From Mercurialis annua (taxonomy: Eukaryota > Streptophyta > Magnoliopsida > Malpighiales > Euphorbiaceae): 64,000 nucleotides of DNA. The position numbers were made by a program, and so were the translations under genes. Shown here in pieces: positions 20,151 to 62,566 of the stretch. Numbering within the stretch: position 1 is the stretch's first letter; the number at the start of each line of letters is the position of its first letter. Location: assembly GCF_937616625.2 (NCBI RefSeq), contig NC_065571.1:15378501-15442500 (forward strand), given 5' to 3'. The notes under the pieces are model-generated. The model ran no database searches. It had not been told where the DNA came from and saw nothing but the letters and a program-made list of their open reading frames with translations.

Positions 20151-20567
20151 GAATTTCTAGATTTGTTTGATGATTTCTTCAATAAGAGTACTCTTCCTAA
20201 GGGTATGAATACATCTTTTATGGTTTTGGTGTCTAAAGTGACGGGATCGACAAACATTAAGGATTATAGACCTGTCAGTTAAATAAACAACTTCTTTAAG
20301 CTCCTCTCAAACACCTAAGGTTATCTCATGAAATCAACATTCTTTTATAAAGGGCATGAACATACTCGAGTGTTCAATGATTGCTAATGAACTTGTTCAC
20401 TTGGAAACAAGGAGAAAGGATAATTTGCTTGTTCTTCAGCTCGACTTCCACAAAACGTTTGATAGTATTGGTTGGGCTTACCTGATATCGGTTATGTCTT
20501 CCATGAACTTCCCGTAAAAATAGCTTGATTGGATGATGGTTTGCTTATCAACGGAAACCACGTTTGT
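20151..20567 (+). mobile_element. L1-type LINE, RT segment
   Basis: It encodes FFNKSTLPKGMNTSFMVLVSK and IKDYRPVS, followed by LVLQLDFHKTFDSIGWAYL-type residues, the classical RT palm and fingers blocks of plant LINEs. A TAA follows the PVS block at 20280. It is cut at the ACGTTTGT site by the hAT element. Confidence 0.8.
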
Positions 20568-20885
20568 CAGTGGCGGATCCAGGATTTTCATATAGTGGGG
20601 TCCAAATACGTATGGAAAATTTAAATTATAAAAATAAGTCTATTTTTAATTAATAATAATAACAAAATAAAATATTTTTTACAATTATTATCAATTAATT
20701 TTTATATTATGAAACTATGAAATATTTACATCGGTATTTATACTATGTAATATATTTATTTTAATTTATGCTATTAAACAATTTTTTAATTTTTTTAGGA
20801 TAACGTGTAAAAACACTAAAATCAACTTTTTTACTATACTTTGTTGAAAAATTTGTGCTGTATTAAAGTTTATTTTTTTGAATAG

Positions 20886-20923
<38 letters not shown>

Positions 20924-21454
20924 AATTCAGATATTAATAAATCATTTGTAGATAAAATTTACTTTTTTTATCCCAATTAATTTGGTTTACTATATATATA
21001 AAAACTAATTATAAATCATTAAATATGCCGTAATATTTAATTGAATAAATATCTATTTTTAAAATTTAATAATATAACAAATAAAAATATTTATATCTTA
21101 ATGAATTTATCATTTCAATTGTTTAAATTTTTCACTTCAAAATCAAAGTTACAATATGTTTAATGACTTTAATATTAACTTGAAGTTTGTAATATACTAT
21201 ATTTGTCATTAATTTTAATATTAAGTTTGCATTTTTAATTACATACTAACACGTGGTCCAATTAGCTAGTAAACACTGTGGTAATTTCAGATTTTGGTTA
21301 TTACTCGTGTAATTAATTAGGAATTAAAGACTTTAAAATTAGAGGTTTTTTGTTTTAATGTTAATTTTATAATATACATATATAGGCAAGAAATATTATT
21401 TTAAAAAGGGTGGGGTCTATGGACCCCACCCTTGTATACATGCATCTGCCCCTG
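20568..21454. mobile_element. Non-autonomous hAT element nested in the LINE
   Basis: The flanks ACGTTTGT (20560-20567) and ACATTTGT (21455-21462) differ at one base of eight. The inverted ends are CAGTGGCGGATCC and (minus strand) CAGGGGCAGATGC, followed by the inverted GTGGGGTC/GACCCCAC block. There is no coding capacity in 887 bp. A (TA)16 run lies at 20889-20920. Excision in silico rejoins the LINE frame at TTFVLVNGSP. Confidence 0.85.
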
Positions 21455-23660: not shown

Positions 23661-23939
23661 TTTAGTATATAGAAAATGCTATTTAACCCACCATTTTGTA
23701 CCTCCTTCATTGTCCCTCCTTACATGGCAGCATTTAATTCGTCCAATTACCCTCCAAAAGTGTATATCTCAAAAAACAACTTTTAATGCATCCACTAATT
23801 TGTTGCCACGTTAAGTGGGTTAAAGAAGGTGGGTTAAAAAGGAGGATTATATAACACTACTCTTAGTATATATCAGTGTGCCACTTTTTGTGCGAAAGAA
23901 TAGTGATTTGTTTTTTTAACATTTTGTGGCTTTTTAATA

Positions 23940-26102: not shown

Positions 26103-26700
26103 ATATCAATTGAATTTTATAGGTCTATTATATTATTATCTTTTAATTAATAACACAACAAAAATGATTAATTTAAATTGATCAAGTTCCAATTAATATA
26201 AAAATAATAGAATCCTCAAAACCATTCAATAATCGAAGACAAATAATCACATAGGTTCTACGAATTTGTTAAACTTTTAAAAGTGTTTAGCTACACGTAA
26301 ACATAACGAAAATCAAATTCAATAAAAAAAGCAGAAAAAAATAAAAAATAGAAAATAGTTATAAATTTCTTCACGTATTTTTTTAATTTTGAGCTTCTAC
26401 CTTTTTCGCGCTCTCGATTTCCTCTCTTTTTTACTTTATAGTGTATTATCGTATCTTATGCCTCTAGTGTGCATAATAGGCACAAGCAAAAATTGTTATT
26501 AGTGCAAAAAGCATGAGTCATTCTTAATTGGAGTCAAATATTATCCAACAATATCGGATCGGATCACAACATTCTATTCGCATTTCCTTAATTTCTTCAA
26601 AATCTCCAACAATATTTCTTGCACTACTCCTATTTTTTTATCCTAATTCTTCCCTTTTTAATATACTATTTCTGTTCTTCATCCTTGAATTGCAAAAACC
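26103..26700. other. Upstream region of the glycosyltransferase gene
   Basis: AT-rich with no other gene. It should hold the promoter of the gene at 26701. I see only weak TATA-like runs (for example TTAATATACTA near 26659), too close to the start codon to be called confidently. Confidence 0.4.
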
Positions 26701-28083
26701 ATGGCACCACTCAAAAGCTCCAATTTTCATATAGTGATGTTCCCATGGTTTGCTGTGGGTCACATGACACCATTTCTCCACCTTGCTAATAGACTAGCTC
26801 AGAGAGGTTGTAGTATTAGTTTCTTGCTGCCCAAGAAAGCCAAACAACAACTACAACATTTCAATCTTCATCCACATCTCATTTCTTTTCATTCCATCAC
26901 CGTCCCCCCCGTCGATGGGCTCCCCGTCGGAACGGAGACGGCCTCCGACATTCCGATTCACATGACACATTTCCTCTCTATTGCTCTAGACCGTACACGT
27001 GATCAAGTTGAAAAGGTCATTCTTGAAACCAAACCTAAATTGGTTCTTTTTGATGTTGCTCACTGGATACCAGAGATAACAAGACCTCTTGGCATTAAGA
27101 CTATAAATTACAATGTAGTTTCCGCTGCTTCGGTGGCGATAGCATTAGTTCCGGCGCGGAATGTCACGAAAGATCGACCGATTACGGAGGCGGAACTGTT
27201 AGAGCCACCCGTTGGTTATCCATCGGAGAATGTGGTTCTTCGTGGACACGAAGCTCGGTCATTGTTATTCGTGTCGTTTCCGTTTGGTGAAGGAATATCA
27301 TTTTACGAAAGAATCTATACAGCTATGAAAGGAAGTGACTCAATAGCCATTAGAACCTGTCAAGAACTTGAAGGAAAGTTTTGTGATTATATCTCAACTC
27401 AATACGACAAACCAGTCTTTCTAACCGGGCCCATCTTGCCCGATCCATCAACGACACCGCTAGAAGAACGGTGGGCGAACTGGCTTAGCGGGTTCGAAAA
27501 AGGTTCAGTCATCTTTTGTGCATTTGGAAGCCAAATTAGACTTGACAAAAACCAGTTCCAAGGATTGGTGTTAGGGCTCGAGTCCACCGGCTTACCATTT
27601 TTGGCCGCGTTAAAAGCGCCCAACGGAGCAAAAACTATCGAAGAAGCACTGCCCGAAGGGTTCGAAGAGAGGGTTAAAGGGAGAGGAGTGGTCTCCAGTG
27701 GATGGGTGCAACAGTTGATGATTCTTGACCATCCATCAGTTGGCTGTTTTCTAAACCATTGTGGGTTCGGGTCAATGTGGGAGTCACTAATGAGTGATTG
27801 TCAAATAGTTTTGGTGCCACATTTGGGTGACCAAATCTTGAACACGAGGTTCATGGCTAGTGAATTGAAGGTGGCAGTGGAGGTTGCTAGAGATGAGAAC
27901 GGTTGGTTTGCGAAGGAAACCCTAACCAAAGCTATTAAGTCTGTGATGGACAAAGATAGTGAATTGGGTTCTGTGGTGAAGGAGAATCATAAAAAGTGGA
28001 AGGAAATTTTGGGATGCAAGGATTACATGAGCGGTTATATTGATAAGTTTGTCAAGAATATGCATGATCTTGTGAATAAGTAA
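26701..28083 (+). CDS. UGT79B: UGT79B-like UDP-glycosyltransferase
   Basis: A 460-aa single-exon family 1 glycosyltransferase, full length for the group. It transfers a sugar from a UDP-sugar to a small acceptor in the cytosol. The likely catalytic His21 lies in FPWFAVGH and its activating Asp118 in LVLFDVAH. The C-terminal PSPG donor-binding box starts at GW (334-335) and contains HPSVGCFLNHCGFGSMWESL and ends LVPHLGDQ. The NHCGFGSMWESLMSDCQIVLVP signature and the FLTGPILPDP linker are those of clade UGT79, whose studied members add xylose, rhamnose or glucose to the sugar of flavonoid or anthocyanin glycosides. The acceptor and donor here cannot be read from sequence. The start lies in a good context (AAACCATGGCA). 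There are no stops, no signal peptide and no membrane segment. An AATAAA lies at 28152-28157, about 70 bp after the stop. Confidence 0.93.
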   Translation: MAPLKSSNFHIVMFPWFAVGHMTPFLHLANRLAQRGCSISFLLPKKAKQQLQHFNLHPHLISFHSITVPPVDGLPVGTETASDIPIHMTHFLSIALDRTRDQVEKVILETKPKLVLFDVAHWIPEITRPLGIKTINYNVVSAASVAIALVPARNVTKDRPITEAELLEPPVGYPSENVVLRGHEARSLLFVSFPFGEGISFYERIYTAMKGSDSIAIRTCQELEGKFCDYISTQYDKPVFLTGPILPDPSTTPLEERWANWLSGFEKGSVIFCAFGSQIRLDKNQFQGLVLGLESTGLPFLAALKAPNGAKTIEEALPEGFEERVKGRGVVSSGWVQQLMILDHPSVGCFLNHCGFGSMWESLMSDCQIVLVPHLGDQILNTRFMASELKVAVEVARDENGWFAKETLTKAIKSVMDKDSELGSVVKENHKKWKEILGCKDYMSGYIDKFVKNMHDLVNK

Positions 28084-38098: not shown

Positions 38099-39590
38099 TA
38101 ATAGAAAATTCATATAACAAACGCTATATCAAGAAACATTCAACTCAGCAACACAAATAAATAAACATTGCAAACAACCAAATCAAAAAACAAAAATTAA
38201 ACACTAGAAATAAAAGGTAACCCAAAAACAAACCTTTTAAATTACTGAGTATATAAACTTGATACTTCCTAGATGCAAAGGCCATACTCGAACATTGATG
38301 ATAATAGATTATACAGTTGCTAGAGAGAAAGTAAAGGAAAAGAATTTTTTGTACTAAATTGCATATTGTATACAGCATTACAGAGTCCTGAGGGTGTGGA
38401 ATAAATACTATAAAACTAGAAGAAAATGATTTACAGTCCCAGAGCAATTTAGTGAAAAACACAGAATAAGACCATACGAAAAAAATATAGATTATACTAC
38501 TACTTAGTACAACAATGCTCCGCAATATCCTTATTCCAAATCAAAATTAGTCTGTAATGCTCTAAATCTGTTCAACGAAATCATACAAATTAAGTAAGAG
38601 AATACAAATTATAATACTACTTAGCAATTAGCAGCAGACCCAAAACTCCATAATCTGCTAATAAACCGGAACATATTATTATGAGTTTTTAGTGACTTAA
38701 CTTTAACAGCTACAAGAAAGAAGAAAAATGGCATAAATTCAACATATTATAGTAATTAAACAACAAAATTAAAGAAAGTAATTAATAAGCTAACAAGTTA
38801 ATTACAAAAACAGATATTAACAAATAAAGTAACAAAAATTAACCATTTGACTGTTCAGACAAAATTAACAAATGAATTATGAAAAAACAAAAATTAACAA
38901 ATAAATTATGAAAAATACATTACTATTACTAAGAAATATAATTAAGAAAAATCCACCAAGTAATTTCAATAAAGCAATTAAAAACACGCCTGTTATAAGA
39001 GCGAGCCGTGGCACCTACCAGAAAAAGGGAGCGGCAGCGGCGGAAAGGAACGGAGCAGGGGCAGCGGCGAGCGGTGGAACGGAGCGGCAGCGGCGAGCTC
39101 CCTCTGTCTTCCTTTCAGGTACTAGTGCCGTTGGTAGCTCGTAAACATACTGGTCAATATATACTTTACGCACTTGAGCAATATGACTTTATGTGCGTGT
39201 GTATTGGTTAAATATTTATTAATACAATCAATAATTTTAATAATTAATAAAATTTTAAAAAATCAAATTCAACATTATATATCTTATATAATATTCAATA
39301 AATTGATAATTCTAATATTTAATAAATTTTTAGTTACCATATTTATTAATTATTAGAGAGTTGACTATATATTAATTAACATTAACTATATTTATTTAAA
39401 ATTTATATTACAAATTAAATTTATTATAACTATATCAATATATTTTATAGGGTTTAATATAACTTAGGTGTGTGAACTTTTTTAAAAATAACAAAATAGT
39501 GTTTAAACAAAATTTTATTACAAGTTAGTGTATGAACTTGTTTAAAAGTTACGAATTGGTGTTTTTAGCAGGTCACCATCAGGTTACAGG
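38099..39590. other. Spacer without recognised genes
   Basis: AT-rich except for a GC-rich patch at about 39020-39110 made of GGAGCGGCAGCGGCG-type repeats, which opens two spurious frames. Its flanks (CGAGCCGTGGCACC and, inverted, CGAGCTACCAACGGCACTA) hint at a degenerate transposon of about 130 bp. I did not establish boundaries. Confidence 0.4.
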
Positions 39591-39795
39591 TTACCAACCA
39601 GAATTTTAACTATCAAAAAAAAGGCAGGTTTGGTTCCTATAGTTTTCAAGCAGCAGTACTGATAAGTACAAAAAGAAAAAATACTTTCAATTTAGTCCAT
39701 ATTTTCAACTAAGAAGAAAAATAAACTTCTGAAATAGTGTAATTAACACTATTTGAATAATAATTAATTAAATTAGGCTTAATTAAGCTAGTTTA

Positions 39796-41330
39796 ATGGG
39801 TAATCCAGCCGAGAGTTCAGACTCTAGTAATCCATCAGGATTGACTTCGCTACACAACGTGCAAAGTGAAGTGCACCAACTCCTTGAACATTTTCATGCA
39901 AAAGGAATTTTAGGTGATTCACCAGAAGAAAGATCTACTTTAGCAAATGAAGTAGGAAAACTGGTAAATGAAAGGTTAGATGCAATTGAAAGGGAAAAGG
40001 GTTTAAAAAGGACAAAAGGACCAATAACTGAAAAAGAAATTCTTCAATTAAGAAAAGAAAAAATTGTTCCTTTTATTGCAGATCCAACAACTAAAGCAGC
40101 CAACATGAATAATAATAATCTGGCACAAGACCTTAGAAAATCCTTAGGTTTGGTAGAAGAAGCTCCTCTACATATAGATGACAGAACCTTTAATGAGCTA
40201 GTCTCTACGAAGAGAACAATGTACAAACCTAATTATCCACATAGGACAAAAGAAGAATTTGTACCTAGGGATAACCCTTTGAGACCGGTAATTAACCCGG
40301 CGGCATTTCTCAACTTAGATTGTGAAAAACATGCGTCCGAAAAAATAGATGAGTGGATTACTATGATTAGATTTACAGTAAAATCAGGTGGTTACACTCC
40401 TGAAGGCGCCTACGAATTGTGCAAAGCCACCATGGTTGGTAATGCTCAAAAATACTGGGAATCATTAATAGCTCATACTCCAATAAAAGAAGAAATTGAT
40501 AAAGAAGTGTTTGCAGATGGAGTACTAGCTATAGTGGTAGACGCCTTGAAAAGAGAATTTTGTGGGTTTTCGTTGTCAACAGAGTCATTAGAAAAAGAGC
40601 AATCTTTAATGGCTTTAATGAAACTACAAATCTGTGACATGTGCTATTTTGATAACTTTGCCTGTGAATTTCAAAAATATTATTATAATTTAGACTTGGC
40701 GGCCCAAAATTACATGTCAGAATTATTTTTTGCTAAACTCCCGGATCCTTGGCCAGAAGTAGCAAAGACTGCATTTCAACTTCTCCTAAATGAAGACAAA
40801 GTAGTTGATGGTTTAGGAGGAAGGATACAAGCAGTGAGGTATGCTATGAGAAAAGCATGCACTGAACTCCAAGTAAGGCAAGATGCAAAACGTCTTCCTT
40901 ATTTAAACAAGAGTTATTGTTCTCAAATTGAGTATGTTCCATGAAGGTATGGATGTTCTTCTGGAACAGAAGAAAAATCTAGGACTGGATATTCTTCAAA
41001 AAAGAAAAGTTTCAAAGGATATAGAAAGAGAAGAATATCAAGAAGAGATAGAGAGGAAAGGAGGAAGTCCGATAGACCAGGAAGGTTTATTAGAAAAAGA
41101 AGTAACCTTAGAGACAAAGATAGGATAGATGCGTTTAAGAAAAAATATGGTAGAGAACCAAAATGTCCTAAGGGAAAACCTTTGAGTAACTGTTCTTGTT
41201 GCTGGGTATGTGGCTCTAAGAGTCATAAAGCCGATACTTGTCCTCAAAAGAATAAGCGAAAGGAAAATCTTAGGAGAGTATTCTTCGAAAATGAGAGTCT
41301 AGCATATGAGCCAGTAGATGAAGAAGAATT
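39796..41330 (+). pseudogene. Pararetroviral capsid protein region (one premature stop)
   Basis: The ATG at 39796 opens a frame whose central part (about 40260-40900) has the helical capsid pattern seen in caulimovirids and gag proteins: a long WITMIRFTVKSGGYTPE segment, then AQKYWESL and AYELCKA. A Lys/Arg-rich stretch follows, then a CX2CX4HX4C zinc knuckle (CWVCGSKSHKADTC, about 41206-41247), and then an acidic tail. A TGA at 40942-40944 interrupts the frame, but the same frame is open on both sides. The product would package viral nucleic acid. It is broken here. Confidence 0.8.
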
Positions 41331-42261
41331 TTCTGATATAGACTCTGAAGTAGATTCAATTTATGAAGTAGTTTCTGAATATGAAACTGATAATGATGAA
41401 TCTGATTTATGGACAGCTAAAATATTCATGATGAACACTTCAAGAGCTGATATGGATGATGAGTTAGTACCATTGGATACTACTCTGGTGCATGAAGAAT
41501 CATTTCAGTACGAGGATCCATCTAGAAACTGTCTAGAATGGAAACTGCCAAAGGTAGACATCAACTCTATTTATAGTAAGTCTAGATTTAGCTTCAAATC
41601 AATAGTCGATGTCTCCCAGTCTGAGTCCACAGCTCAGGTTTCTAGCACAGAATTAGAAACGTTGGATGTATCTCTAATTACACTTGCCAAAATTAGAGAA
41701 ATGATGAACAAGTCTAAAGGTGAATATAAATACATCCATATTGGTTTAGTGCAAGTAGGATTAGTCCCTTTGTTTAATCTCCCAATGGACAGTCCTGTGA
41801 TAGCAGCAGTCTTAGACAAAAGATGGAAAGAATTTAAAGACCAGCTAATATCAGGTGTTCAGACTAACCTAGCAAATGGTCCAGTCTGGTTTCAAGCCTA
41901 TCCAAATTATTTGATGGCTTTAAGCGATAAATGTTTGGGAAATTCTTTGACTCTTAGGATTAAATCCTCTAAGATGAATAGAATGAGTTCTCAGGCCAAG
42001 TATTTGGCGTATCACACTAGGATTGTCTTTAGACTTATTAACACAACTAATCCAGGAGTGAGGAACATTTCTAAAGTAACAGAATTATTCGAAGAAGGTT
42101 CAGATAACTATAAGCAATTCAATAGGAAAGAGATAAATCCTGTAGAACTAAGTTGGCCCAAGAGTTGGGTGCTTACAGAACAAGCTGAATCTTAAAGGCA
42201 AATAGGATCTTCTCAAATAACCCAAAGGGAAAAAGATATCATTCTGAATCTAGAAGAGCCT
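41331..42261 (+). pseudogene. Pararetroviral movement protein region
   Basis: In the same frame as the capsid part, about 41700-42060 shows the 30K-type movement-protein layout: a YIHIGLVQVGL strand, an LDKRW motif, a VQTNLANGPVWF strand, and a later VFRLINTTN strand. Such proteins carry virus through plasmodesmata. The order capsid then movement protein is a classification clue. A TAA at 42193-42195 interrupts the frame, which then continues open into the protease region, so capsid, movement protein and protease were probably once one long ORF. Confidence 0.75.
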
Positions 42262-43416
42262 ATGAGAGTTTTTAGAATCTCTGATCCTATTCTCAGGAGG
42301 TCATTATCCTCTAGGAACATGTTTAATGCTTCAACATTAGACCAACTACCTAGAAGATCAGTGTCTAGTGCAACTGAAAATAGGGTAGAAATTCCTAGAA
42401 CATCAATAAGAGAAGAAGATGGACAATCATCTGATAATAGGAGAATTATAGGCTACAAAGAAATAAGTCTACCTATTTATGCAGATGAAGAGGAAGGTCA
42501 GGAAAGTGTAAGATTAATGAGACAAGCAATAATACTTCCTGAGGTTGTTCGAAAAATTCAAACTATTTCGCAACAACGGTCAATGCCTTTTGAAGATATT
42601 TGGAATATGATATCACCTATTCCAATGGCATCACAAAAGATCTTTAGCCTGGAAAAAACCAATTTGAGCACTTATATTTCACTAACATTCAAATTTTCAG
42701 GTTATTATGATTATTGTTTAGATGCGTTAATAGACACAGGAGCAACAATCAGTAGTGCAAGACCTAATGCATTACCAGATGAATGGTGGAAGCCATTGGC
42801 CGAACCTATTGTTTTACGTATGGCAGGAGGTGAGGTAAATCTAGTAACACATTATGCTGAAAAAGTTCCCGTTATCATTAATGAAAAACAATTCATTATT
42901 GATAAGATTTTAGCCTTTCCTGAACTAGATGCAGATATTATTTTAGGAAATGCTTTCCTAAAAGGGAAAAAAGAAAATCGTCCTTTTGTGCAAGATGATG
43001 TATTTATCTCAATTGCAGGTGTCAAAATCACAACTCTTACGAGTCCACAATTAAAATTGAAATTCGGTTTTTATCCCGTAAAAGTTTCTGAACTTTGTGG
43101 ATCTATATCTTGTGAACCAGCTTACAGAGTGCGAGCACAGCGTGGTGAGTCATGGATAGATTGTTTGTTTGGATCGGAAATTCCAAATGATACCAATTGG
43201 TATGAAAATTTGTGTCAAACACAAGATGTAATAGAAAAACCTATTACAAGAAGCATACAACTTGCAGGAAACAAATGGGATAAGTTCATAAACAAGTTAG
43301 CTGATAACTTTAGTGAAGATCCATTAAAGTTATGGGTTCTAAATGGTATAAAAGCCAAACTAGAACTGAAAGATCCCGATACTATCATCAGATCAAAAAA
43401 ATATAACATATTCTGA
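42262..43416 (+). pseudogene. Pararetroviral aspartic protease region
   Basis: A retropepsin-like active site (ALIDTGATISS, about 42724-42756) is followed by DADIILGNAFL (about 42922-42954), the ILG motif that ends the retropepsin fold. The frame ends at a TGA (43414-43416), just after a run of seven A (43395-43401). The RT frame, shifted by one, is already open upstream of that run, so a small indel in or near it explains the break. A natural frameshift is possible but no slippery signal was seen. Confidence 0.75.
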
Positions 43417-44764
43417 AGAAATGATAGAAGAATTTGATAAACAAATTCCTGAATTGCTCGAAAAAGGTTTGATTAGAAATAGTGAAAGTCCACATTCTAG
43501 TCCAGCTTTTATGGTAATTAATCATGCAGAGCAGGTGCGTGGAAAAGCACGAATGGTTATAGACTATCGTCAGGTAAATCAAATGACCAAAGATGATGGC
43601 TATAAAATTCCTACAGCCGGAAATGTAATTGACAGGTTAAGTCTTAAACAACCATCCATTTTTTCTAAATTTGATTTAAAAAGCGGTTATTGGCAGGTAA
43701 AAATGGAGGAAGACTCTATACCATTAACAGCATTCAATGCTCCTCAAGGAATGTATGAATGGTTAGTAATGCCATTCGGTTTGAAAAATGCCCCTGGCAT
43801 ATTTCAACGAAAAATGGATAATGCTTTTAAAGCATTAAAGAAGTTTTGTGTGGTCTATATAGACGATGTGTTAGTTTTTAGCAATAATGAAGCTGAACAC
43901 GTGAGTCACCTTGAACAAGTGACCGATATCCTTCAAAAGGAAGGTATGATTCTATCTGAAAGAAAGATAGAATGGTTTAAGGAAAAGATAAAATTTCTAG
44001 GGATAGAAATAGCAAAAGGAAAAATATGGCTACAAAGTCATATCTCTGAAAAACTTATCAATTTTTCTGATGAATTGGAAGATAGGAAGCAAGTACAAAG
44101 ATTTTGTGGACTTGCTAACTATGCTAGACAATTCGTGAAAGATTTGTCCAAATACTTAGGAAGGATATCTAAGAAATCTTCTGATAAAACTCCCTGGTAT
44201 TGGGATGAAGAAGACACTCTAGCTGTACAACAGGTAAAAGAAAAAATAAAAAATTTGCCATGTTTAAATTTACCCTCTGATACAGATGAGTTAGTCTTAG
44301 AGACAGATGCTTCAGAAAAGAGTTGGGGTGCAGTCCTTAGAATCAAAGGACGGAAACCTGAACCTATTTGTAAGTATTGGTCTGGAACCTTTAAAGGTGC
44401 AGAATTAAATTATCCAATTCATGAAAAGGAAGTATTAGCGGCAAAAAACGGTATGAAAGCTTTTTATCTCTTCTTAGCACCAAAAAGGTTTATTCTTAGA
44501 ACAGATTCTACTTATGTTAAAAGGTTTAGGAATCTGAACTTCAAAGAAGCTAGACAAACTAGACTCTTGAGGTTGCAAGAATGGTTTAGTTATTACAGGT
44601 TTGATATTGAATATATTGCATCTGATAAAAATATAATAGCTGATTCTCTTTCTCGTGAACTTTCTGACATTGCAGATGGATCCTGCTGCCAAAAACAAGA
44701 TATGTTGGATTTGCAAGAAGGAAGGGCATACAAGAAAGAAGTGCCCTATGAAGCGAGGAAATGA
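43403..44764 (+). pseudogene. Pararetroviral reverse transcriptase and RNase H
   Basis: The RT blocks are intact: SPAFMVIN, KARMVIDYRQVN, FSKFDLKSGYWQV, MPFGLKNAPGIFQ and the catalytic YIDD box (about 43856-43867). The connection follows, then RNase H starting at LETDASEKSWGAVL with the distal IADSLSREL segment near 44634-44660. The frame runs uninterrupted to the TGA at 44762-44764. It overlaps the first 89 bp of the next ORF, a compact viral arrangement. It lacks an integrase, which separates it from LTR retrotransposons. Confidence 0.88.
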
Positions 44765-46514
44765 AGAGAACGAGAGCGTAGGCTCTGGTCCAAAAAGGAC
44801 GAACAAGAAAACAAAGGCTTCAAAAGATAGTCTTTGTTGGCGGTGCAAGCAACCTGGTCATTTTACTTCAGAATGCCCAAAGGGAAATGAAGCTGCGAGT
44901 TCAAAAGAACTGATAAACCCTAAAAAGGTTTATGAAAAGGTAAAAGAAAAACCTTTAGTTCCCCAAAAGGAACGAAAGGAAAAATCCTTGGTTCAACTGA
45001 ACGAGAATAAGAAGCCATTGGTGTCTCAAACGCCAAAGAGAGATCATCTAGCCGAAGGAGCTGCAAAATTTGGCTTGACTAAAGAAAGAGCTGAAAAACT
45101 GCGAGAAGAATGGTACAAAAAATGTAAAGAAGACTATGATAATCGGCTTTCTTCTCAAAAAGATAACGCTGAAATACTGCAAGGTGACATTTTAGGTCAC
45201 GAGGCTAGTAAAAGTGCGAATGAACCTACAAAGGTTCCAAATCAAACTCATAATAAGGAAGAATTTGTTATTAATTCTGGAGAAGAATACTCAGATAATG
45301 ATGATCTTCTCGATGATGGTCCTGAGTGGGATACGTTGGGCGAACCCTCTGGAAAATATGATTTTAAAGTCAAATATTCCATGGAAAAACCATCACATTC
45401 TCAGGAAGAAACAGATTCAAAAATTGAATCTGAAGATATTGATCTTGGAGGATTTCTTGCATCACTAGAAAATCCTGAGGTTGAACAAACCTGGAATTAT
45501 TATGAAGACGAAAGTCTTGGTCTTTCAAAAGACGGATCTAATCTGTGTGCAGGTCTAAAAGGAGGAATCCAAAATAAAAATTTCCAGCAAATATCACACT
45601 TTGCAGATGAAGTTGTTCAATATATTTTAAAATTGGAAAAACAACTTGGTTTCCGTTCAGCACGAGAAGAAGATTTCCTTGAACATATCTCTGAGAGGAA
45701 ACAACTTCTTGAAAGAATGAATCAATATTTACCTCCAGATGTAAGATACACTATCAAAAGGAAAATAGTTGATTCGATAGATCGTTCTCTCAAAGAATGT
45801 TCTATGTTACAACCTTACATTCATTGGCAGTCACATGGATGGCCTGGTTTGCAAATTGAAGCAGACGTGGCGGTGGAAAGTCTAAAATTCACAGAAGCAG
45901 GTCTAACTTCAATTTTAGAAGTGGATTTAGAAACTCCCCGGTCAGTATTTCCAGGAATTGTGCAGACAGCTTTAAGTTATGTTAAACAAACATCTAGGTT
46001 TGTTACATTTCAAATTATAAGTACAATGATGGAATATGAAGAGGATGGTAAGGTCCGATATCCTTATCAAATTTGGGATCTTCGTCCTATCACCAATAGA
46101 GAGCTTGTGGAACCCCAGAAAGTTAATAGTCAAAATCAAAAATTAAGATGGAAAATGTATGAAGAATCAAAACTCGCAAACAAAGCTCTTCATATTGAGT
46201 TCCTCAAGTCTGTTTTGGAGAATATAGTTAATAATTCTAACTACATCATTCTCGGAGATGGAAGAATGTTCATAACCATCTGGTCCAAAGATATTGAAGT
46301 TATCGATAATGCAAGATTTATCTCTGGACGAGAAGAGGAAAAAACATTACTCTTGAAGTTAGTTAACAAGGATGCTAGCTTAAATTTCAAATCAGAAACC
46401 TTTGAGATTTGGAAGAAAGTAGCTGAGTATAAAGAACAGCTCTTTGAGAAAGCAAGGCAGGAACTAGACGAAATGAATTGGGACTTGCCTGTCACTCACT
46501 CACAGGTGGCATGA
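44676..46514 (+). CDS. Second large pararetroviral ORF with twin zinc knuckles, about 612 aa
   Basis: Fully open from the ATG at 44676 (MDPAAKNK; an upstream GTG frame start is not used). It overlaps the RT-RNase H end. Two CX2CX4HX4C knuckles lie at residues 10-23 (CWICKKEGHTRKKC) and 54-67 (CWRCKQPGHFTSEC), separated by a basic linker. A charged Lys/Glu region and a strongly acidic stretch (EEYSDNDDLLDD) follow, then a globular C-terminal half (about 300-600). By position it corresponds to the transactivator/inclusion-body ORF of some caulimovirid genera, but that role is inference and I do not recognise the C-terminal domain. Intactness beside a broken polyprotein is notable. Confidence 0.7.
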   Translation: MDPAAKNKICWICKKEGHTRKKCPMKRGNEENESVGSGPKRTNKKTKASKDSLCWRCKQPGHFTSECPKGNEAASSKELINPKKVYEKVKEKPLVPQKERKEKSLVQLNENKKPLVSQTPKRDHLAEGAAKFGLTKERAEKLREEWYKKCKEDYDNRLSSQKDNAEILQGDILGHEASKSANEPTKVPNQTHNKEEFVINSGEEYSDNDDLLDDGPEWDTLGEPSGKYDFKVKYSMEKPSHSQEETDSKIESEDIDLGGFLASLENPEVEQTWNYYEDESLGLSKDGSNLCAGLKGGIQNKNFQQISHFADEVVQYILKLEKQLGFRSAREEDFLEHISERKQLLERMNQYLPPDVRYTIKRKIVDSIDRSLKECSMLQPYIHWQSHGWPGLQIEADVAVESLKFTEAGLTSILEVDLETPRSVFPGIVQTALSYVKQTSRFVTFQIISTMMEYEEDGKVRYPYQIWDLRPITNRELVEPQKVNSQNQKLRWKMYEESKLANKALHIEFLKSVLENIVNNSNYIILGDGRMFITIWSKDIEVIDNARFISGREEEKTLLLKLVNKDASLNFKSETFEIWKKVAEYKEQLFEKARQELDEMNWDLPVTHSQVA

Positions 46515-46840
46515 CAAAAACGTCATCCATGATGTCACCCTCAATATGTATAATTGAGGCAGCCACTATCCTACAAAGCACTACCCATAATATGACCCAT
46601 GTGTCTTAATATGCGTGTCATGTCTTTAGTGCTGTTGTAGGAACCTTATCTTTTATATTGTATTATTGAGAGTTATTGTACTACAGCTGGAAAATGGGAC
46701 CAGAGACACCAGCTGTCTAAAATTATTGCTTTCAATTATTGAGTCTTTTGAAGCTGGAAAACAGTACTAGAGGCACCAGCTAGTCGTTGTATTCCCTATA
46801 AATACCCTTAAGTTCTATGAACAAAGGGAGCAGAAATAAA
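46512..46840 (+). promoter_or_regulatory. Pararetroviral promoter with as-1-like motifs, TATA box and poly(A) signal
   Basis: As-1-like half-sites (ACGTCA and ATGTCA) cluster at 46512-46537. Two related 30-bp units, each starting AGCTGGAAAA and ending CACCAGCT, lie at 46685-46714 and 46752-46781. A TATAAATA box is at 46797-46804 and an AATAAA at 46835-46840, about 30 bp later. A TATA box closely followed by a poly(A) signal is the caulimovirid arrangement that yields a terminally redundant genomic RNA. Confidence 0.75.
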
Positions 46841-47116
46841 TCAGAGTGCTTTCATATAATTGTCTGAGAATTTTTGCTACTATATACCTTGTTTCATTTT
46901 ACAACGGTCTGTTTTAGTGAAGGAGTGTTTCATAAGTCCCATAATCAATTAAAGAGAAGCGGGCATTCATAACACAGAAGATCCTTCTAGCTGCTGGTGA
47001 CGAGCGTAGAGGAAGTGGACACAATTGCGGAAGCTTAGTGGACCCTGTTCATTGAAGGTATATATTTTTAGATGAATAAATTGTTTTATTTATCTGAAGT
47101 TTTTACTTAAAGCTTG

Positions 47117-47428
47117 ATGAATGGTAATTGCCCTTATCCTGATTATTTCCATTTAGATCACGGAGTAGGTAAGGAACCAGTAATAGGATTGTTAAATTCT
47201 ATTATCGATCGTCTTAATTCTCTAAGTGTGACTTTAGAAACTTTAAACAAATCTGTAGAAAGTTTTTCTAAGCATTTAGAAGAGTTGACTCTTAAACAGA
47301 GTGAATTTGAGAATTATTTTCTTAAGAACAGAGAACCATTAGGTTTTGTTGCTAGCTCTCGATACTTTCATGAGTATGAGAAGCTGAAGGAGTCTAGAAA
47401 TAATAGACAAAAAATTAAAGATCTTTGA
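47117..47428 (+). CDS. Small pararetroviral ORF in the RNA leader, 103 aa
   Basis: The ATG is at 47117; the frame extends three bases upstream only through a TTG. The protein is mostly a predicted coiled coil, with heptad-like leucines through LLNSIIDRLNSLSVTLETL and following, and a charged C-terminus (EYEKLKESRNNRQKIKDL). It lies between the promoter and the primer-binding site, so it would be the first ORF on the genomic RNA. It could resemble the small virion-associated proteins of other genera, but no homology can be claimed by eye. Confidence 0.55.
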   Translation: MNGNCPYPDYFHLDHGVGKEPVIGLLNSIIDRLNSLSVTLETLNKSVESFSKHLEELTLKQSEFENYFLKNREPLGFVASSRYFHEYEKLKESRNNRQKIKDL

Positions 47429-47472
47429 GTAACTCTTTAGTTCCGTCATTATAGGAGTAGGCTCACAATTGA

Positions 47473-47485
47473 TGGTATCAGAGCC
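47473..47485 (+). promoter_or_regulatory. Primer-binding site for initiator tRNA-Met
   Basis: TGGTATCAGAGCC matches the 3' end complement of plant initiator tRNA-Met, the primer for minus-strand synthesis in Caulimoviridae. It lies at the right edge of recognisable viral sequence. Confidence 0.85.
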
Positions 47486-47489
47486 TAGT

Positions 47490-48360
47490 AGATTTTTAAA
47501 AATTTCTGGACTGTTTTGAAAAGAAAAAAAAAAGTTTAAGGACTAAAACTGAAATAACAAAAAAATTTGAAAACTGGTTAAAGTCCGAAACTGGCAAACA
47601 CACCATATTGTAATTATTCAACAAGTTGCAACACCGTATTGTGATAAAATTAAGTTAAAACCCCATATTGTTATTTCGTAAAAAGTTGAAACACCAAAAG
47701 TATAGTAATTCCTATTTTATATATAATTAATATTAAATTATTTAGAAAGTTTTTATATGAATTTGATTAACATGATTAATTATATTAATATTTTAATAGT
47801 AGTAAGCAAGTGTATTTATAAATATTTTTTAAAATTAATATAATATAAAAAAAAATTGCCAAAGATAGAGTACGATTTTTAGAGTCTCAATTTGTTAGTA
47901 GTTAGTTACGGAAGTAGGAATCGAACCCATGACCTCTTGATGCATTTGGAGACGCCTTAACCATTTAGACTAGACTTACACCGACAATATAATATAATTA
48001 ACAACTGTCCTATTGTTTTAAGTGATTTTTTCAGTAAGTTATTTTTTATATGAATTAATTTTATAATTATAGTTAAATATGAAAAGCATTCTAGTTTAAA
48101 TAAATAGTTCTCTAATATTAATCTGTCAAATGGAAATAGTAAATAAATGAAATAAAAATAGTTTGCAGCAAGTAATAATTTTTAATGTTAATTTTTTTAA
48201 GTTTTAGTATTTGATTTGTTATAGATAATATAATTTTCAAATACATGTAAAATTCTTATTTTTTTATTTAAATCAAATATAATGTTTTCTTAGCTAGTGG
48301 ATTTTTACTTTGTAATATCAATTTTTCAGTATATTGTAGTACAAAAACTGAACCAAAATA
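47490..48360. other. AT-rich spacer with a SINE fragment
   Basis: Beyond the viral edge the sequence turns AT-rich. Phrases such as GTTGCAACACCGTATTGTG at about 47590-47700 repeat loosely. Apart from the tRNA-like segment at 47883-47985, nothing is recognised. Confidence 0.45.
47883..47985 (-). mobile_element. tRNA-like SINE fragment
   Basis: On the minus strand the A-box TGGTTAAGGCG (47953-47963) and B-box GGGTTCGATTCC (47917-47928) lie at tRNA spacing with GTCTAAATGGTT upstream, similar to tRNA-Leu/Ser. No tail or target duplication was found. A tRNA pseudogene is the alternative. Confidence 0.6.
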
Positions 48361-53833: not shown

Positions 53834-55094
53834 CCACCTTATAATTTTCCCTAACCCTAAAATCATTTACCCTCTCTTTTCAGATTCACTCGCAGCCTCT
53901 CTCTCTCGAACTTTCCTCTGAAAACCCTAACCCTAAATCATATTTTCTCTCTGATTCTCTCAGTTTCTCACTGATTCTATCAGTTTCTCACCCTGATACA
54001 GTCTTCGTTTAGCCATAATTTGTGTATTCATCAACTGTTCTGTGCTTTTAATCGAAGAAAATGAAAAGTTTGAACCTTCGATTCGATCCTAAACGAGATT
54101 AAACTAATCTCTGAAAGTCTCAGTATCTCACTGAGTTTGTTAAAGATTATGTGAGTATATGATCGATTATCCTCTGTCATAGAGGTTTAGTTTCAATATT
54201 TATGTTTTAGGTTTTGATTTCTGCCCTATTTGATTATTTTTTTTCCTTTTCATGTGCAAAACGTGGGATTCATGCAATTATCAGGTAATACATCTCTATT
54301 TTTCAGTTTGTTCTTGTTCTTATATGGTTGTTTGTTCTGATTTTGTGATTATCTCTGTAACTGATATGATTTATTTCTTTCCTCCATGTTCTGAACTGGG
54401 GATTTCTGGAAACTCCTTCGGATTTGGCTTTGATTTTATAAGAACAGGTAATTATATTTTAGGGTTTTTATTTGTGAACTAGTTACTAGTTACTTATTTC
54501 TTTGTCTTGATTTAATCTAATGAATTTTGTCTTTTGCTTTGTCTTCATGGCATGTCTGGCTGTCTGCAAAAAATGAAAAGATTCACTCACTAAGTGAATG
54601 AGTGAATCTTTTGTGGTGGAAGCCCTTCACTGTTGGATTCGTGGCCCCAAATCTGAGACTCAGTGACTTGAATCACTTGATCTAATACCTAATTTGCTTA
54701 CCTATTGCTTGGATTGCATCTGCTGCTGGGTATGTGCATTCCTTCTAATGTATTTAATTAGTAGTTATAATTGTATGGTGGATTGGTTTAATGGTTTGTA
54801 TTCTATGATTTTCTGTGTGTTTGTTGGTTTGTACTTTGTATGATCTTAGCCTGTCATGTTTAAAACATACAAAATGAAAGTGGTTTGGAAGCTATTAAGT
54901 GATGCCTCATGCCTCTGTATTGGTTCAATGTTATATTTTGGTCAATTGTTGTCTTCTGTGCCTAAATAAAAGTGATTTTTCAAGAATGAAATGTTTAAAA
55001 CTTAAAATGAAAAAGTGGTTTGCTATTTATCTAAGTGAATAAGTGGTTGCTTGATGCCTCTGTATTGATTGAATGTGGTTCTTTGCTCACACAG

Positions 55095-57320
55095 ATGTCA
55101 AACCTTGACCAACAGCAAGTTGCTCTTGTTGATGTTGAGGGGGTTGATGGCTCATCTCCTGAGTTACCCCCTTCAACTCAGCAGGAGCAACCTGTTGCTG
55201 CTGCTGAGGGCTCATCTGAGCCTTCTCAGCAGCAAAAAGAAGATGCTAATCCTGCTGCTACTGGAGGTAAACCAGTTGATAAAAAACGTAAGCAAATTCC
55301 TGTTAGATCTAAAGTTTGGGAGCATTTTGAGCGCATAGTTGATGAATATGGCAAATTACTTATGGCTAAATGCTTGTATTGTGCAAAAATATATAATTCT
55401 GACACTAAAGTGAATGGGACTTCCACACTTAGAGCCCACATTCTTGCATGTCTTAAGAACCCTCATAGTAAAGATACCAGACAGACCTTGTTAACTCTAC
55501 AACCTGTTTCTGCTAGTCATGATGAAACTGAGGGGAAGGGAAATTTGGGGGTTTGGAAATTTAATCAAGATGACATTAGGAAAGCATTGTCTTATATGCT
55601 CATTGTAGATGAGTTGCCTTTTAAGCATGTAGAAGGTATGGGGTTTAAGAGATTTATGAGTGTTGCATGCCCAAGGTTTCACATTCCTTCTAGATGGACT
55701 GTTAATAGGGACTGCTACCAAATGTTTCTTGATGAAAGGTTGAAGTTGAAAAATATTTTGAAAAATGGGAGTCAAAGAGTTAGTATCACAGCAGACACAT
55801 GGACTAGTATTCAACGTATTAATTATATGTGTGTTACCTGCCATTGGATAGATAATGATTGGATTCTTCATAAAAGAATCATTAATCTTGTACCTGTTTG
55901 TGGGCATAAAGGGGACTACATAAGTAAAACACTTGAAAATTGCTTGCTTGGTTGGGGTCTTAAGAATGTTTTCACAGTAACTATGGATAATGCTGGTAAT
56001 AATAACACTGCTATTGCTGCATTTAAGAAAAAAATGATTTCTTGGGGCACTGATGTTTGTAAATGTGAATATTTGCATATGAGGTGTATAGCACATGTGA
56101 TCAATTTGGTTGTGTCTGATGGTCTGAAAGAAATGCATGATTCTGTTAAAAAAGTTAGAGATTGTATACGTTACATTAGGAACAGTCCATCTAGACTTAA
56201 GAAATTTAAAGACCTTGCTGCTGCTGATGATAAAATTGGCACCAAAAAGTCCTTGTGTCTTGATGTTGCAACTAGGTGGAACTCCACTTATCTTATGCTT
56301 GACACTGCTTGCTTGTTTCAATCTGTTTTTGAGAGTTATGAAGAATCTGATGAGAGTTTTAGGTCTGATATGGCTGAATGCATTCCTACTTTTGTTGATT
56401 GGGAAAATGTGAAGAAGTTTGCTACTTGCTTGTCATATTTCTATGTCACAACTTTGAGAATATCTGGGTCTTTGTATGTCACATCTAACATGCATTTTCA
56501 AGAGATTGTTGACCTTTCTATCATGTTAGATGAAATGCTTAATAGTGAGGACCATCAGATTATTCTAATGAGCAGAAAAATGAGGGAGAAATTTAACAAA
56601 TATTGGGGTGATCCCCAGAAGATGAATAATCTGATTTTTTTTGCACATGTTTTTGATCCTACCAGTAAAATGAAACATTTGTTGTTTGCTTTGAAAGCTC
56701 TATTTGGTCCTGAGCAAGGTCTTAAGTTATTTGACACTGTGAATGATAAGCTGACAATCCTGTTTGCTGAGTATGAAAAGGCTTATGTACATGGTGGTTC
56801 ATCTGCTTATGTTAGTCTTAGTCAGTCTTCAGAGGCTGTTTCTGCTCAAACACCAATCCTGCCACCACCTGCAAAAAGACATATGTCCCTTATGAAGGCC
56901 AAATTTGATGAGCAGAACAAGGGTAGTGATTCTGGTAGTAGGAAATCTGAGCTGGAATTGTACCTGAGTGAGGCTACGGTTGAGAATGATGATGATTTCA
57001 ATATTTTGAAGTGGTGGAAGCTAAACTCAGGGAGATTTCCAATCCTTTCAAGGATGGCTCGAGATATTCTTGCTGTCCCTATCTCTACTGTTGCATCTGA
57101 ATCAGCATTTAGTACTTATGGAAGAGTACTAGACTGCTTTAGGAGTTCTTTAACTCCAAGATTGGTGGAAGCATTGGTGTGCACTCAGGATTGGCTTAGA
57201 GCAGAAGCTTGCCCTTTGGTGATTGAAGAGTGCCTCGAAGAATTGGAACCCTTTGAGCAAGGTTATGTCCTTAAACTAACTTTTATTTATTATTTGATTT
57301 GTAATTTCTTTTATATTTAG
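55095..57320 (+). CDS. hAT transposase (BED zinc finger, RICESLEEPER-like)
   Basis: The first ATG (MSNLDQQQ) follows CTCACACAG directly, a likely 3' splice site, so I start here, not at the upstream GTG. A Gln/Ser-rich N-terminus leads to a BED finger (KCLYCAKIY..STLRAHILAC, about residues 92-120). The catalytic hAT core follows with TADTWTS, TMDNAGNNN and CIAHVINLVV. The C-terminal dimerisation domain is ELELYLSEA..LKWWK..FPILSRMARDILAVPISTVASESAFS. All conserved blocks are present and there are no internal stops. The last codons may be intronic: a donor at 57262 and an acceptor CAG at 57364-57366 would give an alternative C-terminus ending at 57380 (725-726 aa). It should cut and paste elements with TAGGGG-type ends. 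Confidence 0.9.
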   Translation: MSNLDQQQVALVDVEGVDGSSPELPPSTQQEQPVAAAEGSSEPSQQQKEDANPAATGGKPVDKKRKQIPVRSKVWEHFERIVDEYGKLLMAKCLYCAKIYNSDTKVNGTSTLRAHILACLKNPHSKDTRQTLLTLQPVSASHDETEGKGNLGVWKFNQDDIRKALSYMLIVDELPFKHVEGMGFKRFMSVACPRFHIPSRWTVNRDCYQMFLDERLKLKNILKNGSQRVSITADTWTSIQRINYMCVTCHWIDNDWILHKRIINLVPVCGHKGDYISKTLENCLLGWGLKNVFTVTMDNAGNNNTAIAAFKKKMISWGTDVCKCEYLHMRCIAHVINLVVSDGLKEMHDSVKKVRDCIRYIRNSPSRLKKFKDLAAADDKIGTKKSLCLDVATRWNSTYLMLDTACLFQSVFESYEESDESFRSDMAECIPTFVDWENVKKFATCLSYFYVTTLRISGSLYVTSNMHFQEIVDLSIMLDEMLNSEDHQIILMSRKMREKFNKYWGDPQKMNNLIFFAHVFDPTSKMKHLLFALKALFGPEQGLKLFDTVNDKLTILFAEYEKAYVHGGSSAYVSLSQSSEAVSAQTPILPPPAKRHMSLMKAKFDEQNKGSDSGSRKSELELYLSEATVENDDDFNILKWWKLNSGRFPILSRMARDILAVPISTVASESAFSTYGRVLDCFRSSLTPRLVEALVCTQDWLRAEACPLVIEECLEELEPFEQGYVLKLTFIYYLICNFFYI

Positions 57321-60405: not shown

Positions 60406-62566
60406 ATGGCGTACAGAGCAGAGGAAGATTACGATTATCTGTTCAAGGTGGTTTTAATTGGGGACTCAGGAGTCGGAAAATCCAATTTACTGTCGAGATT
60501 CACCAGAAATGAATTCAGCCTTGAATCCAAATCCACTATCGGAGTCGAATTCGCCACCCGTAGTATTCGTGTCGATGATAAGATCGTCAAAGCCCAGATT
60601 TGGGATACTGCTGGCCAAGAAAGGTATATAGATCGGTGTTTTTTGTTTAATTTGTGTTCAAATCTTGTTTGGAGTAAATCATGTGCTACAAATTAATTTG
60701 ATGTTGGTTATACTTAATTTAGCTGAACTGTTTGGTTTTAGGTTAGGGTTAAGGTTTAGTTTTGGTTCATTTATTGAGTTTTGTGTAAATGTGTGACTGA
60801 GAAGTAATGGTTTAGTTTAAGATAATAACTAAAGTAAAAACTACTGGTTAAACTTAACTGATTATGCCTCGGTGGGTCTTTGGCGAGTGATTTTCCGCTT
60901 TGTAGTTGTATGTGAGATATGTGTTACTTGATTGAATGGTTGTTGATCTTGTTTGGTACTTTCAACTTAGAAATGGTTACCTGTGTTTTGCTAAGAGAGC
61001 GAGAAAGAGTTATCGACTGCTTGCTTGGTTTATTGTCGAATAGCTCTATCCTAAGTAGCATGGACACGGTGTTATTTTAAAGTTTCCTACGTAAAAAAAT
61101 GAAGTTGCCTGTCCGAAATGTCAAGTGTAAACAGGACACGATGAGTGGATGAAGTGTCTGTGCTACTATCCTGAACTTTGAAACTGCCTAATAATGGTCA
61201 TTTTGTTGAGATAATCATACCAACTATTTTGACTGTGTCTGGTTTCGCATCTGTCTGGCATGTAGCTGAAGGCCTAGACCAGATCAAATAAAGATTTTTT
61301 TATTTCTTTTATCTTTCTTTAAATGTTTTTGAATTTAGCTTGCGTTGTTGGGCCCACTGGATTCATTAGCTTGATAAACTGGAGAGGTTTATGTTTTATC
61401 AACTATCTGTGAATTGTATCATCTATGATAATTGCTGAATGATTTGATTTCTTGCCATTTATGTGCTAAATGCATGTAATAGACTTCTAGCCAAAAGAAC
61501 CAGCTGGGCTGAATGGGAGAACAAGGTTGTATAGTCATGGCTGGCAGAAAAGAAAAAAAGGGAAAAGTATAGCAAAAGACCCTATTCGCTTGTCGTGTTA
61601 GGCCTTATGAAAGAGCTTAGCAGTAGAGCATATTACTGGCTATCTTGCCTAGATCACATAGGAAAACAAATAATTAAATCACTAAAGAATGGTATTTGGT
61701 CTATTTCTTCACATTATAGAACAAAAGTACTTAAAACATGTCCATATATATCAATCTCTGCCAATCTTTTGTTTAGGCATTTAATATTTTATGTAGCAGT
61801 CAGCATGTGCATGGCTAATTTGCTTGCTGAATTGTGGAGGACTAACTTTTAGCATTAGGGGAAATAATTGTGCCATGCTTGGGCTTCTTTGAGTGAGTCG
61901 ATTCAGAAACTCCAAACAGTTCAAAAGTGTGAATAGTTTTAATCAGTTATTTTTCTTTTCTTTTTCTGTTACCTCCTTTATACCTGCCTCTCTTTTTTCA
62001 CTAAAGTGGTCATGCTTAATCTTCCATGTTAGCTGTTCCTTTGCAATAAAAATGTGTAGTTGCATTCATTTGTTTATACGTTTGGTACTTTGCATTATAA
62101 ACTTTGAGATTGATTTTATTTTTGTTTATTTGGCCAAAGATACCGTGCTATCACGAGTGCATACTACCGAGGAGCTGTTGGTGCATTGCTAGTTTATGAT
62201 GTCACAAGACATGTCACTTTCGAGAATGTTGAGAGATGGTTGAAGGAGCTACGGGGTCACACAGATGCTAATATTGTGATTATGCTTGTGGGGAACAAGG
62301 CAGATCTGCGTCATTTGCGTGCTGTTTCCACTGAAGATGCCAAGGCCTTTGCTGAGAGAGAGAATTTATTCTTCATGGAAACATCTGCCCTTGAGTCTTT
62401 GAATGTTGAGAATGCTTTTACCGAAGTGCTTACTCAAATATATCGTGTAGTCAGCCGGAAAGCACTTGAGGTAGGGGATGATCCCGGAGCCTTACCTAAA
62501 GGGCAAAGCATCAACGTTAAGGATGATGTTTCAGCTGTTAAGAAAGTTGGCTGCTGCTCTACTTAA
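60406..62566 (+). CDS. RABA1: RABA1-type small GTPase (Rab11 family)
   Basis: Exon 1 is 60406-60623 and exon 2 is 62140-62566. The GT donor at 60624 and AG acceptor at 62138-62139 split the Arg codon after WDTAGQE, the intron position usual for plant RABA genes. The product is 214 aa. All nucleotide-binding motifs are present: P-loop GDSGVGKS (19-26), switch I TIGVEF (44-49), WDTAGQE (66-72), NKAD (125-128) and ETSA (153-156). The C-terminus GCCST carries Cys211 and Cys212 for double geranylgeranylation. RABA1 proteins direct traffic between the trans-Golgi/recycling compartment and the plasma membrane and cell plate. The N-terminal [15 protein letters not shown] and the [11 protein letters not shown] stretch place it in subgroup A1. 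The 1.5-kb intron shows no further exons. Confidence 0.95.

Follow-up and report, generated by a model that had tools for sequence, protein, structure and literature searches.

A capsid-first caulimovirid genome as cargo of a Mutator-like transposon in Mercurialis annua

Background

Among the DNA transposons, members of the Mutator superfamily are marked by terminal inverted repeats (TIRs) together with target site duplications (TSDs) of 9-10 bp, and the Pack-MULEs (MULE, Mutator-like element) carry fragments of host genes as cargo. Teratorn, a transposon fused to a virus, reportedly encodes its own transposase. Pack-MULEs are described as Mutator-type elements that capture foreign sequence between long TIRs (PMC8277862, PMC9168764), and Teratorn as a 180-kb piggyBac-herpesvirus fusion of medaka in which transposition activity is retained (PMC5601938, PMC5822658, PMC10175614). 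Here we report on a 64,000-nt stretch of the genome of Mercurialis annua (contig NC_065571.1, positions 15,378,501 to 15,442,500, forward strand; "the window"), which holds on its + strand, at 39450-47712, an element of 8.26 kb. We conclude, with a probability of about 0.88, that this element is a non-autonomous MULE whose cargo is a whole capsid-first caulimovirid genome. In the literature covered (titles and abstracts, with most subscription papers outside the scope) no pararetrovirus genome was found described as the cargo of a DNA transposon. The closest concept is that of Teratorn, in which the genome of a virus and a cut-and-paste DNA transposon have likewise merged within the DNA of a host; the present composite differs in its size (8.3 kb), in its reverse-transcribing plant virus, in its Mutator-type ends, and in that no transposase was found in the element (Pfam, E 0.1). 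It shares with Pack-MULEs the capture of foreign sequence between long TIRs, whereas what it carries is the nearly complete genome of a virus, the genes of which show signs of selection between subfamilies.

In the genera Cavemovirus and Solendovirus the capsid precedes the movement protein (MP), and the reverse transcriptase (RT) is encoded in a separate open reading frame (ORF). Both genera carry a TAV gene (PMC5902531), whereas ORF4 of the present element, which lies downstream of RT-RNase H, gave no match to the TAV model PF01693 at E 0.1. Petuvirus and the florendoviruses resemble the element in having the core proteins in one polyprotein, the florendoviruses also in having a downstream ORF, but their MP is located 5' of the capsid protein (CP), while here CP is 5' of MP (PMC4241990). 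Wendovirus, a tentative endogenous genus of about 7.7 kb from angiosperm genomes, is described with a CP zinc finger, MP plus aspartic protease (AP), AP-RT-RNase H, and ORF4 (PMC9794742), which is the same order of CP, MP, AP, and RT-RNase H followed by a conserved ORF4 to which no function is given. It has four overlapping ORFs and two proteases (PF13975, PF00077), in contrast to the single 1654-codon frame from CP to RNase H and the one detected protease of the present element; TIRs and TSDs are absent from the description in PMC9794742, by which the comparison was made.

Results

The two ends of the element (Table 1) can be aligned in inverted orientation over 113 nt without gaps at 73% identity (E 1e-16); the local score is 141, whereas 200 shuffles gave 81 at most. 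Compared in direct orientation, the ends score 81, the same as the shuffle maximum, and thus show no sign of long terminal repeats (LTRs). An LTR retroelement is rejected on this shuffle-level similarity, and TIRs with 9-10 bp TSDs do not fit such an element. The preliminary description of this DNA had taken the locus for an ordinary endogenous pararetrovirus at 39600-47490; that span is about 370 bp short of the true ends at 39450 and 47712, and the reading did not hold once the TIRs and the 9-bp TSD, which had been overlooked, were recognized.

The same ends recur in dispersed copies. Similarity to the window stops at 39450 in 17 of 20 capsid loci (exceptions L043, L046, and L048) and at 47712 in 18 of 20 ORF4 loci (exceptions L027 and L028), the window being included in both counts. 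TSDs were surveyed in 27 copies chosen from the ORF4 and capsid matches, most fragments being outside this survey. Both ends could be located in 24 of the 27, and 21 of these 24 have a perfect TSD (9 bp in 15 copies, 10 bp in 6 others), one has a 9-bp TSD with one mismatch, and two are unmatched. The remaining three copies are one without the main-type right end, one with neither end, and one of which the left side only was tested. When the left flank of one copy was paired with the right flank of another as a control at 9 bp, none of the 552 wrong pairs was perfect and 2 had one mismatch. On contig C2 near 43.04-43.06 Mb (L014, L015, L030, L031) one composite is nested in the RT region of another and has its own TSD.

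Relatives of the transposon without viral cargo were detected when the genome was searched with each end (40 scored matches apiece, of 112 and 102 candidates). Three places that match both ends without nearby capsid or ORF4, plus one chosen by its right-end match alone, make up a mutually related set: L071 (~1245 bp), L072 (705 bp), L073 (1012 bp), and L074 (696 bp). In all four both ends are present (left 81-85%, right 84-86%), nothing matches 39771-47503 at E 1e-3, and the longest run free of stops does not exceed 97 codons. By eye, L072 has a perfect 9-bp TSD and L073 one with a single mismatch, as does L071 if its left end is set at its GGG. On the left, the match to L071 extends as far as 39720 and is followed by an extra 23-nt match at 39748-39770; on the right it resumes at 47504. 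These limits place the viral cargo at ~39720/39770 to 47504, i.e., from just 5' of the capsid start codon to 14 nt past the 18-nt primer-site stretch. The primer site is a natural discontinuity in caulimovirid DNA, and the position of the junctions suggests that the virus was opened at or near it.

Table 1. Coordinates of the composite element and its parts in the window
Feature	Position	Strand	Evidence and remarks
Left TSD, TATTTTATA	39441..39449		identical 9 bp on right
Left TIR, Mutator-type transposon	39450..39566	+	ungapped match to reverse complement of right end
Transposon-derived stretch, left TIR to viral cargo	39567..39720	+	81% match to L071; shared with subfamily 2; inner border approximate, 39720-39770
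Capsid region, first part of polyprotein frame	39796..40941	+	PF22909 (Caulimovir_coat_dom) 5e-11; in-frame stop follows
CCHC zinc knuckle, 3' of capsid domain	41200..41241	+	C-x2-C-x4-H-x4-C, by eye in translation
30K movement protein domain	41584..42048	+	PF01107 2.7e-18; frame stop at 42193-42195
Aspartic protease domain	42667..42996	+	PF02160 (Peptidase_A3) 1.3e-11, PF00077 1e-4
Reverse transcriptase domain, different frame in window copy	43538..44011	+	PF00078 (RVT_1) 2.1e-37
RNase H domain	44201..44593	+	PF17919 5e-21, PF17917 7e-18
ORF4, 624 codons, twin CCHC knuckles near N end	44676..46514	+	PF00098 (zf-CCHC) 1.5e-7, two stretches
TATA box TATAAATA of presumed pregenomic promoter	46797..46804	+	presumed, by eye
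AATAAA, presumed polyadenylation signal	46835..46840	+	presumed, by eye
Short leader ORF, 103 codons, between promoter and primer site	47117..47428	+	ORF list
tRNA-Met primer binding site, TGGTATCAGAGCC..., 13-nt core in 18-nt stretch	47473..47490	+	sequence match
Transposon-derived stretch 3' of viral cargo	47504..47595	+	84-86% match from 47504 (L071), 47531 (L072, L074), 47538 (L073)
Right TIR	47596..47712	+	inverted match to left end
Right TSD, TATTTTATA	47713..47721		identical 9 bp on left

Related viral sequence between different outer ends was found in two copies (L043/L069 and L048/L070), here called subfamily 2. Their apparent TIRs are ~130 bp, and with the ends placed by eye both copies have perfect 9-bp TSDs on both sides (TTTTAAAAT in L043/L069, TTTATATTG in L048/L070). 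The right junction region of subfamily 2 is 86% identical to that of the main subfamily; by eye, the stretch 47528-47582 beside the cargo is common to the main subfamily, subfamily 2, L027, and the cargo-free L071-L074, and a left stretch at ~39604-39720 to both subfamilies and L071. The shared stretches point to a single capture, and from this comparison we read both subfamilies as probable descendants of one capture whose outer ends later diverged or were replaced, independent captures being also possible. Subfamily-2 ends were sought in L066, L067, L046, L057, and L058, with scores near the shuffled maximum, and the right end of L027 scored 59-67 against the subfamily-2 end, above a shuffled maximum of 36. 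Next to the same cargo, the left flanks of L046 and L066 may hold TIRs of a third type, read by eye (CATCTCCA..TCCCT.CACTT).

Selection on the viral genes was estimated as dN/dS by the Nei-Gojobori method, with the same alignments in two shifted frames as the control. Between the window and subfamily 2, CP gave 0.14 (L043) and 0.10 (L048) and RT 0.13 (L075, presumably identical with L048). For two diverged copies outside the set with demonstrated TSDs, CP gave 0.20 (L046) and ORF4 0.30 (L027), and against main-subfamily copies ORF4 gave 0.21 (L017) and 0.25 (L025); the shifted frames gave 0.42-3.2. The low values against diverged copies indicate that the genes diverged while in use, with perhaps some relaxation after insertion, and since CP and RT stand at 0.10-0.14 against subfamily 2, the composite was probably more than dead cargo. 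Divergence is uneven in five copies: per 400 nt, 6-12 differences were counted in ORF4 and 0-3 in the region of promoter and leader; this mosaic suggests recombination and could be gene conversion, and it makes any dates loose. Plant substitution rates of 7e-9 to 1.5e-8 convert dS of 0.065 to 0.33 into very roughly 2 to 24 million years, a span that viral replication would shorten.

Domains were called with Pfam in six pieces of the window searched separately (cut-off E 0.1). All caulimovirid functions are encoded on one strand in the order capsid, zinc knuckle, MP, protease, RT-RNase H, ORF4, promoter, and tRNA-Met primer site, and no integrase model matched in the six pieces; the one-strand gene set without integrase or LTR that had been described earlier is thus borne out by Pfam and by the direct-orientation comparison of the ends. 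The features of Caulimoviridae in the window copy are CP, 30K MP, aspartic protease (one region detected by Pfam), RT-RNase H, and the tRNA-Met primer site, all known here from integrated DNA alone. A primer site with at most two mismatches is located near the right end in all 20 ORF4 loci scanned (L009-L028). The leader stretch 47181-47489 is ~93% identical to subfamily 2, and the leader ORF gave no Pfam match above the cut-off. For ORF4 a single homologous protein was detected at E 1e-3 among 7994 candidates scored, and its source is Mercurialis annua itself. An assignment of ORF4 function by fold was dropped (AlphaFold mean pLDDT 42 for the C-terminal half). Two Mercurialis annua gene models, LOC126657247 and LOC126657031 (P0121, P0122), include ORF4 and capsid sequence of the element, the former bearing additionally PF00856 and PF09273 in precomputed Pfam.

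In agreement with the preliminary description, capsid, MP, and protease share a single frame at 39787-43416, in which stops now stand at 40942 and 42193. Another frame, at 43370-44764, holds RT-RNase H, so that the window copy has two in-frame stops and a frameshift. The host genome was searched for more copies, as had been suggested, and yielded 119 capsid, 94 RT (E up to 1e-40), and 75 ORF4 matches. Three loci hold an unbroken 1654-codon frame with capsid and RT (3 of the 119 capsid and of the 94 RT matches), and two additional RT matches have frames of 1654 and 1658 codons with one stop in each; the presence of MP and protease between capsid and RT was checked by Pfam in the window copy only. 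The proposed ancestral polyprotein extending to RT-RNase H is therefore seen without reconstruction in the three intact frames. On contig C54 near 37.12 Mb (L064, L065) there is an internally deleted derivative, a shorter transposable form in which capsid start and ORF4 make one 724-codon frame with a 9-bp TSD.

The RT lineage was examined in a quick maximum likelihood tree with SH-aLRT support and no bootstrap. Its 119 RT-RNase H rows comprise 116 of 121 database proteins with a match of at least 280 residues, the window, a Melastoma candidum protein, and, as outgroup, a Ty3-type sequence of the genome that holds the window. The window RT groups solely with the Melastoma candidum protein (SH-aLRT 100), to which it is 74% identical over 44% of the query. 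The other RT matches are at most 55% identical among the best 120 of 575 (top P0083, 55% over 56% of the query; best non-Melastoma identity 54% in RT alignment A1), and among named viruses the values are 44% for Rudbeckia flower distortion virus, 43% for Cestrum yellow leaf curling virus, 40% for soybean chlorotic mottle virus, and 39% for chicory mosaic cavemovirus. A second Melastoma protein has the capsid (55%) and then the knuckle region (54%) in one chain. Genus-level groups are delimited by 62% identity in PMC13308828; the non-Melastoma identities are under this rule, and the fragment P0083 is borderline under the 55% rule applied in earlier work. Under the 62% criterion the RT sequence of the element is compatible with a genus-level group of its own, with possible nesting in the endogenous Wendo-, Xendo-, or Zendovirus. 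The tree that had been suggested accordingly gave a separate branch with the Melastoma candidum protein only, endogenous Wendo-, Xendo-, and Zendovirus not being among its 119 rows. Of the earlier proposal that the layout marks an undescribed lineage, the capsid-first order, the single polyprotein, and the separate RT branch stand, but the same gene order is already printed for Wendovirus in the description of PMC9794742. Two pattern scans of viral contigs gave 2 and 48 matches, none related. Two more RT matches, on contigs C1 at 39.67 Mb and C3 at 16.11 Mb, are 46-47% identical and are probably other endogenous caulimovirids of this genome.

Elsewhere in the window, a long hAT-type transposase frame is located at 55035-57320 (Dimer_Tnp_hAT 1e-32, zf-BED). 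By eye, a 464-codon open frame at 26689-28083 resembles a plant glycosyltransferase, several + strand frames at 16418-23665 resemble a decayed LINE-type retroelement, and a 150-codon open frame at 62114-62566 resembles part of a Rab-type small GTPase.

Discussion

Carriage of the pararetrovirus by a Mutator-type transposon is supported by the precise ends, the TIRs and 9-10 bp TSDs of dispersed copies, the cargo-free relatives, and subfamily 2. Several observations weigh against it. Two of the 24 copies lack a TSD (C3:71.5, and C2:18.36, the left end of which is minus 16 bp), and the cargo-free L074 is without a clean one. The virus/transposon junctions are only approximately placed, the shared junction stretches are short and AT-rich, and L071, instead of being a progenitor, could be a former composite from which the virus has been lost. 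The outer TIRs of subfamily 2 gave no alignment to the main TIRs, so that independent captures are still possible. No transposase was detected within the element (six pieces, Pfam, E 0.1), and no match to the main ends was found at E 0.01 at three sampled MULE transposase loci (~4 kb on each side), where a single 25-nt stretch matched the left end of subfamily 2 and several stretches matched the L072 element. As to selection, the mosaic divergence blurs the test, close CP pairs gave ratios of 0.53, 0.53, 0.53, 0.79, and 2.12 (6-9 changes each), and close ORF4 pairs gave scattered values of 0.63, 0.22, 0.34, and 0.48 (7-24 changes).

A sequence of events compatible with these data can be outlined. 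Viral DNA, opened at the primer site, would have entered a MULE once, as filler in MULE break repair (the Pack-MULE route), and a host MULE transposase would then have mobilised the composite in trans. MULE transposases are present in the genome (150 PF10551 matches scored of 1157 candidates). The composite lineage may afterwards have kept passing through viral replication, or have kept swapping genes with a replicating relative; divergence of the viral genes under purifying selection between subfamilies makes one or the other probable.

It is conceivable, as a tentative extension, that MULE ends next to the primer site became part of the genome of a pararetrovirus lineage, which then employed a host Mutator transposase in place of an integrase, i.e., that the composite is a virus-transposon hybrid with a transposon-like and a viral state, between which it alternates with its genes under selection. 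In a single insertion the pregenomic promoter would lie at the far end, 3' of the ORFs, and read outward, so that transcription of a complete pregenomic RNA would call for a circular or tandem form. If the composite were excised and closed into a circle, its TIRs would be joined within the leader of the RNA, with the primer site on one side and the capsid ORF on the other, and the genome would be switched on. A head-to-tail TIR junction was searched for in the assembly with one exact pattern (gap of at most 14 nt) and none was found, which is weak evidence against such a hybrid. The composite may at some time have replicated as a virus, a possibility that the selection data favour.

A simpler account would be passive Pack-MULE cargo, in which dead viral DNA was captured once and only transposed thereafter. 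The TIR and TSD evidence would agree with it, as would the TSD of the derivative in which the capsid start is joined to ORF4 and the relaxed ratios in some close pairs (CP 0.53-0.79 and one 2.12, at 6-9 changes; 0.60 for L043 vs L048). We think this account unlikely, and unlikely too that the cargo was purely dead over its whole history: dN/dS against diverged copies is 0.10-0.30 in the true frame vs 0.42-3.2 in the shifted frames, other close ORF4 pairs stand at 0.22-0.34, and the full capsid-to-RNase H frame is retained in three copies. Repeated capture, in which a free virus was under selection and different strains of it were taken by different MULEs at the same primer-site gap, would explain the unlike outer TIRs of the two subfamilies, and the purifying selection would then belong to the free virus. 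It has, in our estimation, a low probability in view of the junction stretches at 47528-47582 and ~39604-39720, which, short and AT-rich as they are, are common to both subfamilies, the right one also to L071-L074 and the left one also to L071. An ordinary endogenous pararetrovirus, with many independent illegitimate integrations in break repair, would agree with the integrase not found, the missing LTR sign, the tRNA-Met primer site, the broken frames, and the many fragmented copies whose ends were mostly outside examination, but it is highly improbable and is rejected for the TIR-bounded copies because dispersed copies have the same two ends with TIRs, 21 of 24 have perfect TSDs, and cargo-free relatives have the same ends.

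Conclusions

In a 2023 review of endogenous caulimovirids (PMC10377300) the mechanism of capture is treated as speculative. The proposals made there include break repair, homologous recombination, LTR-retrotransposon recombination, segmental duplication, endogenous proliferation, and the hijacking of an integrase derived from a transposon; its sections 3.1-3.2 do not name carriage by a cut-and-paste transposon as a route of spread. Spread as transposon cargo, visible here to the nucleotide, departs from current ideas on how such viruses become established in plant genomes. It offers a concrete answer, in Mercurialis annua, to how one genome can contain numerous nearly identical copies of a virus for which no occurrence beyond that genome is known. 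Should the selection signal reflect a hybrid that remained viral, the composite would be a reverse-transcribing plant counterpart of Teratorn, an integrase-less virus that borrows the transposase of its host.

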